Source: Hypnocyclicus thermotrophus
GTDB taxonomy: Bacteria > Fusobacteriota > Fusobacteriia > Fusobacteriales > Fusobacteriaceae
Direction of reading: 5' to 3'
DNA length: 64,000 nt
Assembly: GCF_004365575.1 (NCBI RefSeq)
Contig: NZ_SOBG01000002.1
Location: 62,001-126,000, forward strand
Shown: positions 26,854 through 27,004 of the stretch, in pieces
Numbering within the stretch: position 1 is the stretch's first letter
Layout of the letters: each line of letters starts with the position of its first letter
Made by a program: the position numbers and the translations under genes
The notes under the pieces: generated by a model
Database searches by the model: none
What the model was told of the DNA's origin: nothing
The model's input: the letters and a program-made list of their open reading frames with translations, nothing else

Positions 26854-26882
26854 TTGACAGAATTATAAAAAAAAGTTATAAT
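26854..26882 (+). promoter_or_regulatory. Promoter of pyrG
   Basis: Perfect TTGACA, 17-base spacer, perfect TATAAT, starting four bases after the fba stop codon. The predicted start site is near 26889, giving a leader of about 115 bases before pyrG. Confidence 0.9.
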
Positions 26883-26907
26883 AATTTCTATAAAATTAAA
26901 TATATTT

Positions 26908-26950
26908 GAGGTGGGAGTCTAAAACCCACCTCAAAAAAAAAACTTTAGAC
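26908..26950 (+). promoter_or_regulatory. Putative H-type pseudoknot antiterminator in the pyrG leader
   Basis: Stem 1 is GAGGTGGG (26908-26915) with CCCACCTC (26925-26932). The hairpin loop contains GTCTAAA (26917-26923), exactly complementary to TTTAGAC (26944-26950) downstream. The two stems are separated by single adenines and by an 11-base A-rich loop 3 (26933-26943), ideal geometry for a classical H-type pseudoknot. TTTAGAC overlaps the 5' arm of the following terminator by four bases (AGAC, 26947-26950), so pseudoknot and terminator exclude one another. This looks like a transcription attenuator sensing an unknown signal, possibly CTP or another nucleotide because of the gene it precedes. 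Confidence 0.75.
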
Positions 26951-26975
26951 GAATTTTTTTTTTCGTCTTTTTTTT
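26947..26975 (+). terminator. Conditional terminator in the pyrG leader
   Basis: AGACGAA (26947-26953) pairs with TTCGTCT (26962-26968), followed by seven T residues. It lies between the pyrG promoter and pyrG, so it must be bypassed for expression; see the overlapping pseudoknot. Confidence 0.8.
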
Positions 26976-27004
26976 ATTGTAAATTAACATTTTAAGGAGG
27001 AAGA

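Follow-up and report, generated by a model that had tools for sequence, protein, structure and literature searches.

The leader of pyrG, the CTP synthase gene of Hypnocyclicus thermotrophus, contains an intrinsic terminator with a loop made of an unbroken run of ten T's directly followed by a C, and this T10-C loop is what is conserved in fusobacterial pyrG leaders across most of the order. We propose that the leader is probably a protein-free, CTP-responsive attenuator in which the U10-C junction in the terminator loop acts as the sensor and works by slippage of RNA polymerase; we infer the response to CTP, the slippage and the direction of control from sequence comparisons. The leader itself may have been described before, and slippage-controlled pyrG attenuation of this form looks new: no published description of the leader was found in the literature searched, which left out most subscription papers.

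Organization of the pyrG leader

In the window, by which we mean the whole 64,000-nucleotide stretch of DNA that was analysed, pyrG is preceded by the elements listed in Table 1. The promoter, the 8-bp stem 1, the complementary heptamer and the terminator, which an earlier note on this DNA had named, were all recovered where it had placed them, and promoter-like sites occur at similar positions in the pyrG leaders of several relatives. Hairpin P1 alone has a nearest-neighbour energy of -13.4 kcal/mol and could be extended by pairing T26905-26907 with A26933-26935. The heptamer in its loop and its downstream complement form a pseudoknot of sound H-type geometry, with linkers of one base each (A26916 and A26924) and an 11-nt loop 3 consisting of A10 and a C (26933-26943); AGAC (26947-26950) is common to stem 2 and to the 5' arm of the terminator. 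No Rfam family matched the leader, and covariance models returned no riboswitch match up to E=5 between positions 20000 and 35000.

Table 1. Features of the pyrG leader in the window, and the DUF1846 locus of genome G015.
Feature	Position	Strand	Evidence or remark
Promoter, sigma-70-type, TTGACA-N17-TATAAT	26854..26882	+	12/12 consensus match
Expected transcription start	near 26889	+	From promoter position
Hairpin P1 (stem 1, 8 bp), GAGGTGGG (26908-26915) / CCCACCTC (26925-26932)	26908..26932	+	
Pseudoknot stem 2, 5' strand, GTCTAAA	26917..26923	+	Loop heptamer of P1
A10 tract	26933..26942	+	In pseudoknot loop 3; possible U-tract partner
Pseudoknot stem 2, 3' strand, TTTAGAC	26944..26950	+	Exact complement of GTCTAAA; 26947-26950 also in terminator
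Terminator hairpin, AGACGAA (26947-26953) / TTCGTCT (26962-26968)	26947..26968	+	-8.1 kcal/mol
Conserved core in terminator loop, unbroken T10 (26954-26963) then C26964	26954..26964	+	Cross-genome conservation
Terminator U-tail, T8	26968..26975	+	Sequence
Ribosome-binding site of pyrG, AAGGAGG	26994..27000	+	Sequence
pyrG, glutamine-hydrolysing CTP synthase, 531 aa	27005..28600	+	TIGR00337 (860 bits); PF06418 and PF00117
DUF1846 gene, T10-C leader near 650	710..2218 of L159 (G015:C33:33300-36500)		

There is good support for the earlier proposal that CTP synthase has an undescribed attenuator, and the pyrG leader does contain an intrinsic terminator. What that reading missed is the T10 run of the terminator loop with the C directly next to it. 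Such runs are rarer in the window than expected, with three on both strands compared to 24.5 +/- 6.9 in shuffled sequences, and the pyrG leader alone accounts for two of the three with its T10 and its A10. The A10 tract lies 11 nt before the T10 of the same leader. The other terminator-like hairpins of the window (21 in all) have internal T-runs of at most 4. Throughout the genome of H. thermotrophus, 11 T9+C sites were found, defined as nine or more T's, a C and a nearby T6, and a hairpin is formed at the pyrG site only.

Elsewhere in the window, a methionine sulfoxide reductase MsrA/MsrB coding region on the minus strand (30377-31446) is divided between overlapping reading frames at 30377-31045 and 31009-31446; a frameshift seems to have interrupted a fused msrAB gene.

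Conservation of the T10-C terminator loop in Fusobacteriota

We sought pyrG in 98 Fusobacteriota genomes and gathered 68 upstream regions, including one (L041) from a scan of genome contigs. A terminator hairpin with a strict T9+C loop is present in 53 of these 68 leaders compared to 2 of 6,800 dinucleotide-shuffled upstream regions, and in about 59 of the 68 when a run of T8-12 followed by C is accepted and stems leaving the C unpaired are allowed; the leaders are related by descent, and these counts do not represent independent events. Among the 55 leaders that could be parsed, the run is exactly 10 long, the modal length, in 39 and ranges from 8 to 12 (a run of 7 parsed in L147 is spurious), and the base that follows is C in 54. 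The sole exception, L013, results from the wrong choice of an upstream hairpin, and the true L013 leader has T10-C.

The C stays constant throughout about 21 distinct terminator stems, with both bases of pairs 2 and 3 differing between relatives (pair 2 being C-G, T-A or G-C). Two groups of leaders, L011/L012/L016 and L023/L129/L137, have 13-17 nt inserted 5' of the run and keep T10-12 followed by C. Leader L004 is short and carries the T10-C terminator alone, with no stem 1, pseudoknot or A-tract; an A-rich stretch occupies the position of the A10 tract in many relatives and is missing from L004. In Leptotrichia-type genomes the T10-C element is found 200-700 nt upstream of pyrG.

Seven leaders of the latter type (L024, L026, L028, L029, L127, L139 and L141) have the T10-C terminator about 460-690 nt upstream of pyrG and just behind the previous gene, and no clear ORF was seen between terminator and pyrG in the Leptotrichia-type leaders read.

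Nine genomes with pyrG are devoid of a T-run-C element. In seven of them, pyrG lies directly behind another gene, which is not the case in the remaining two, L015 and L147, and the L147 leader has no terminator. The terminator of the other leader, L015 (L174, genome G038), is GGCGA-taagt-TCGTC, with a short loop and no T10; its family is represented by one genome, and this leader may offer a natural comparison by which to judge the T10 model.

A scan of 96 genomes across the order for T10-C-N3-8-T6 yielded about 70 distinct sites, about 43 of which are pyrG leaders. The subset of non-pyrG sites that we read lay mostly within coding sequence or had no GC stem. One site among those read is a real leader, located before a DUF1846 gene in genome G015 (see below).

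Extent of the pseudoknot

In the window, the 7-nt match between the loop heptamer and its downstream complement beat 300 of 300 composition shuffles. A comparable fold was found in Propionigenium maris (L005, on the same contig as L033), where both stems have a different sequence and yet remain complementary: stem 1 is GAAGAGAG/CTCTCTTC and stem 2 is CAGTGG/CCACTG, with an A10 loop 3. Stem 2 was equalled in 2 of 300 shuffles (p 0.007). These two lineages probably do form the pseudoknot. Apart from P. maris and the window's genus, represented by two near-identical leaders, no pyrG leader compared was found to have it. A hairpin immediately before the terminator is more common, being present, with unrelated sequence, in most Fusobacteriaceae leaders.

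Compensatory changes are seen for both stems in P. maris, but conservation of the pseudoknot does not extend to the other leaders. The two folds share AGAC in the window, where they would exclude each other as the earlier note proposed, whereas stem 2 of P. maris overlaps the terminator arm by one or two bases; mutual exclusion is therefore not conserved. We rejected the pseudoknot as the conserved element, because only two independent cases were seen among about 20 Fusobacteriaceae leader types and L004 keeps its T10-C terminator without it. Given its absence from most pyrG leaders, we consider the pseudoknot to be a local aid, not a conserved switch.

A proposed slippage model for CTP sensing

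The length of the T10 run is about that of the RNA-DNA hybrid within RNA polymerase. A polymerase that has transcribed the whole run and waits for CTP would hold an 8-10 bp hybrid made entirely of rU-dA, which would be prone to slip, so that scarce CTP would lead to the reiterative addition of U's. The extra U's would make the loop larger, hold back the 3' arm and drive the 5' arm of the terminator out of the polymerase early; in H. thermotrophus, stem 2 could take up the AGAC of the ejected 5' arm. The bigger loop, the extra time and the pseudoknot would then stop the terminator hairpin from forming and let transcription reach pyrG. With plentiful CTP, the C would be added at once, the hairpin would form and transcription would stop. 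The E. coli polymerase is notably slip-prone on poly(T) and its RNA-DNA hybrid spans 8-10 bp (PMC6260861), A/T runs are the main sites of transcription insertions (PMC5574713), and reiterative transcription has been found in pyrG transcripts of Streptococcus agalactiae (PMC4448216).

The weakest step of the slippage model is the failure of the terminator upon addition of U's. Ten extra U's would change the nearest-neighbour energy of the terminator from -8.1 to -6.5 kcal/mol. We rejected loop growth as a purely thermodynamic effect, which would amount to only 1-3 kcal/mol; because this energy change is modest, a kinetic effect or a competing fold must contribute. The A10 tract could pair with the U's in the window, but A-tract:U-tract pairing was rejected as a universal antiterminator since L004 has no A-tract. 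The distance of the element from pyrG in Leptotrichia-type genomes and the nine pyrG genomes devoid of it also speak against the model.

Other explanations of the conserved loop

The main rival to slippage is CTP-limited pausing alone, in which a stall before the C would let an antiterminator form, either stem 2 or the A-tract paired with the U-tract. The invariant C after the tract suits such a pause, and in the window the pseudoknot does compete with the terminator. However, a pause needs no homopolymer of about ten, which leaves the fixed length of the run unexplained; most leaders share no antiterminator, L004 having neither P1 nor an A-tract; and a slower polymerase usually terminates more. 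We thus consider pausing without slippage unlikely. An Hfq-, cold-shock- or Rho-like protein that binds the U10 tract and controls termination would have a suitable site, as U-runs are typical single-strand protein targets and the tract is predicted from the fold to be exposed in the loop, but it would account neither for the invariant C that adjoins the run nor for the restriction to the CTP-synthase leader, making this a very unlikely reading. A tract that switches pyrG at the DNA level by phase variation, through replication slippage, would agree with the one-nucleotide difference between two congeners (T10/T9) and with the overall span of T8-T12. Against this stand the length of 10 in most species, the invariance of the C and the expectation that pyrG is needed at all times, and we regard it as extremely improbable.

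The earlier note suggested that the pseudoknot attenuator is perhaps a nucleotide-sensing riboswitch; on this reading, a nucleotide or glutamine would be bound by a compact pseudoknot that excludes the terminator. The geometry of the fold, a loop match that beats all shuffles and the replacement of both stems in P. maris with complementarity retained all argue for it, but the failure to find a common pseudoknot in the other leaders, the absence across pyrG leaders of conserved unpaired residues able to form a ligand pocket, the negative Rfam search and the overlap with the terminator by one or two bases in P. maris make a ligand-sensing riboswitch highly improbable. Alternatively, the hairpin could be the ordinary terminator of the upstream aldolase gene fba with a T-rich loop arising by chance. 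It could indeed also end fba transcripts, and the genome is AT-rich; yet a perfect promoter stands between fba and the hairpin, the T-runs of other terminators in the window do not exceed 4, and the element is kept before pyrG despite different upstream sequence. We find this disfavoured reading hardly credible.

A T10-C leader upstream of DUF1846 in a genome without pyrG

In G015, a genome in which no pyrG was detected, the T10-C element lies behind its own perfect promoter and before a DUF1846 gene transcribed divergently from the gene upstream of it. Thirty Fusobacteriota genomes have no pyrG above the family cut-off (G037, with pyrG in two pieces, was counted as having the gene). DUF1846 (UPF0371) is present in 25 of the 29 pyrG-less genomes of the order Fusobacteriales that were searched, and the four without it are incomplete (62-86%). 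Within the Leptotrichia-type family f4, the only DUF1846 carriers are the two genomes of genus g23, which have no pyrG. Among 214 Clostridia genomes sampled evenly, DUF1846 occurs in 41 of the 47 without pyrG compared to 60 of the 167 with pyrG (Fisher p about 2e-10, uncorrected for phylogeny).

The protein is a 'hypothetical protein' in NCBIfam and has an invariant PGPGSGK motif. DUF1846 has no profile similarity with PyrG, its predicted model, which is mediocre (pTM 0.49), shows no PyrG-like fold, and no paper linking it to CTP was found in the literature searched, which left out most subscription papers. Knockdown of a DUF1846 gene causes a strong CRISPRi viability defect in Clostridioides difficile (PMC12548448), and a pneumococcal member of the family was reported to bind hemin (PMC9238395). 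The T10-C element is absent from the other fusobacterial DUF1846 leaders scanned (the start of L213 could not be parsed), and no shared attenuator was found before DUF1846 in 20 pyrG-less Clostridia.

A conserved GAGTC/AAGTC directly follows many fusobacterial DUF1846 promoters (L175-L204), and in one genus it forms part of a GTCAG...CTGAC hairpin.

Judging from gene content and leader sequence, we tentatively put forward DUF1846 as a candidate substitute for pyrG in CTP supply, an assignment that we hold possible but short of probable. That elongation slippage in the terminator loop senses CTP and, at the same time, DUF1846 is a non-homologous CTP-forming enzyme seems doubtful. The U10-C element could also serve as a functional tag, its copy before DUF1846 in a pyrG-less genome pointing to a testable CTP-making candidate.

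Comparison with known systems

Meng, Turnbough and Switzer reportedly described, in 2004, CTP-sensitive reiterative transcription at the GGGC start of Bacillus subtilis pyrG (cited in PMC4448216). In Bacillus, stuttering at initiation adds G's that pair with the 5' strand of the terminator. The B. subtilis attenuator and the fusobacterial leader share the gene, a leader terminator and, in our model, independence from any protein, and in both a homopolymer is directly followed by a C, such that low CTP would favour re-adding the preceding nucleotide. They differ in that G's are added at initiation in Bacillus, whereas the U10 of Fusobacteriota lies inside the terminator loop and would act during elongation. 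The absence of a GGGC start, already pointed out in the earlier note for the window, extends to all the fusobacterial leaders collected: a regular expression for GGGC downstream of the -10 box matched 0 of 68 fusobacterial and 35 of 67 Firmicutes pyrG leaders. Conversely, no T9+ tract was found in these 67 Firmicutes leaders or in 20 further Clostridia pyrG leaders. The fusobacterial leader follows a logic like that of Bacillus pyrG attenuation with other parts and at another stage of transcription, and because the defining GGGC start is missing we did not file the leader as a Bacillus-type member.

For Lactococcus lactis pyrG, a pause-based model has been proposed, with CTP-limited pausing at a stretch of C's. 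There too a CTP-synthase leader contains a terminator and CTP would be sensed through the speed of the polymerase, but the sensing element is a C stretch instead of U10 with a single C after it. The E. coli upp, codBA, carAB and pyrBI operons use reiterative transcription or UTP-sensitive leaders (work on the upp T-tract is cited in PMC4448216), and resemble our model in sensing nucleotides by slippage on T-tracts or through U-rich leaders; in contrast, they act at or just after initiation or via coupled translation, outside a terminator loop. With the preQ1-I and SAM-II riboswitches the leader has in common a compact H-type pseudoknot with an A-rich third loop, but it matches no such family and its pseudoknot is not conserved in homologous leaders.

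Nucleotide sensing by slippage is known chiefly from transcription start sites. A deeply conserved U10-C loop would relocate such sensing to elongation and to the terminator, and the length of the tract would match the polymerase's own RNA-DNA hybrid. If the slippage model is correct, bacilli and fusobacteria would have solved protein-free CTP control of CTP synthase with different parts, a G-stutter at the start in the former and a U-tract in the terminator loop in the latter.
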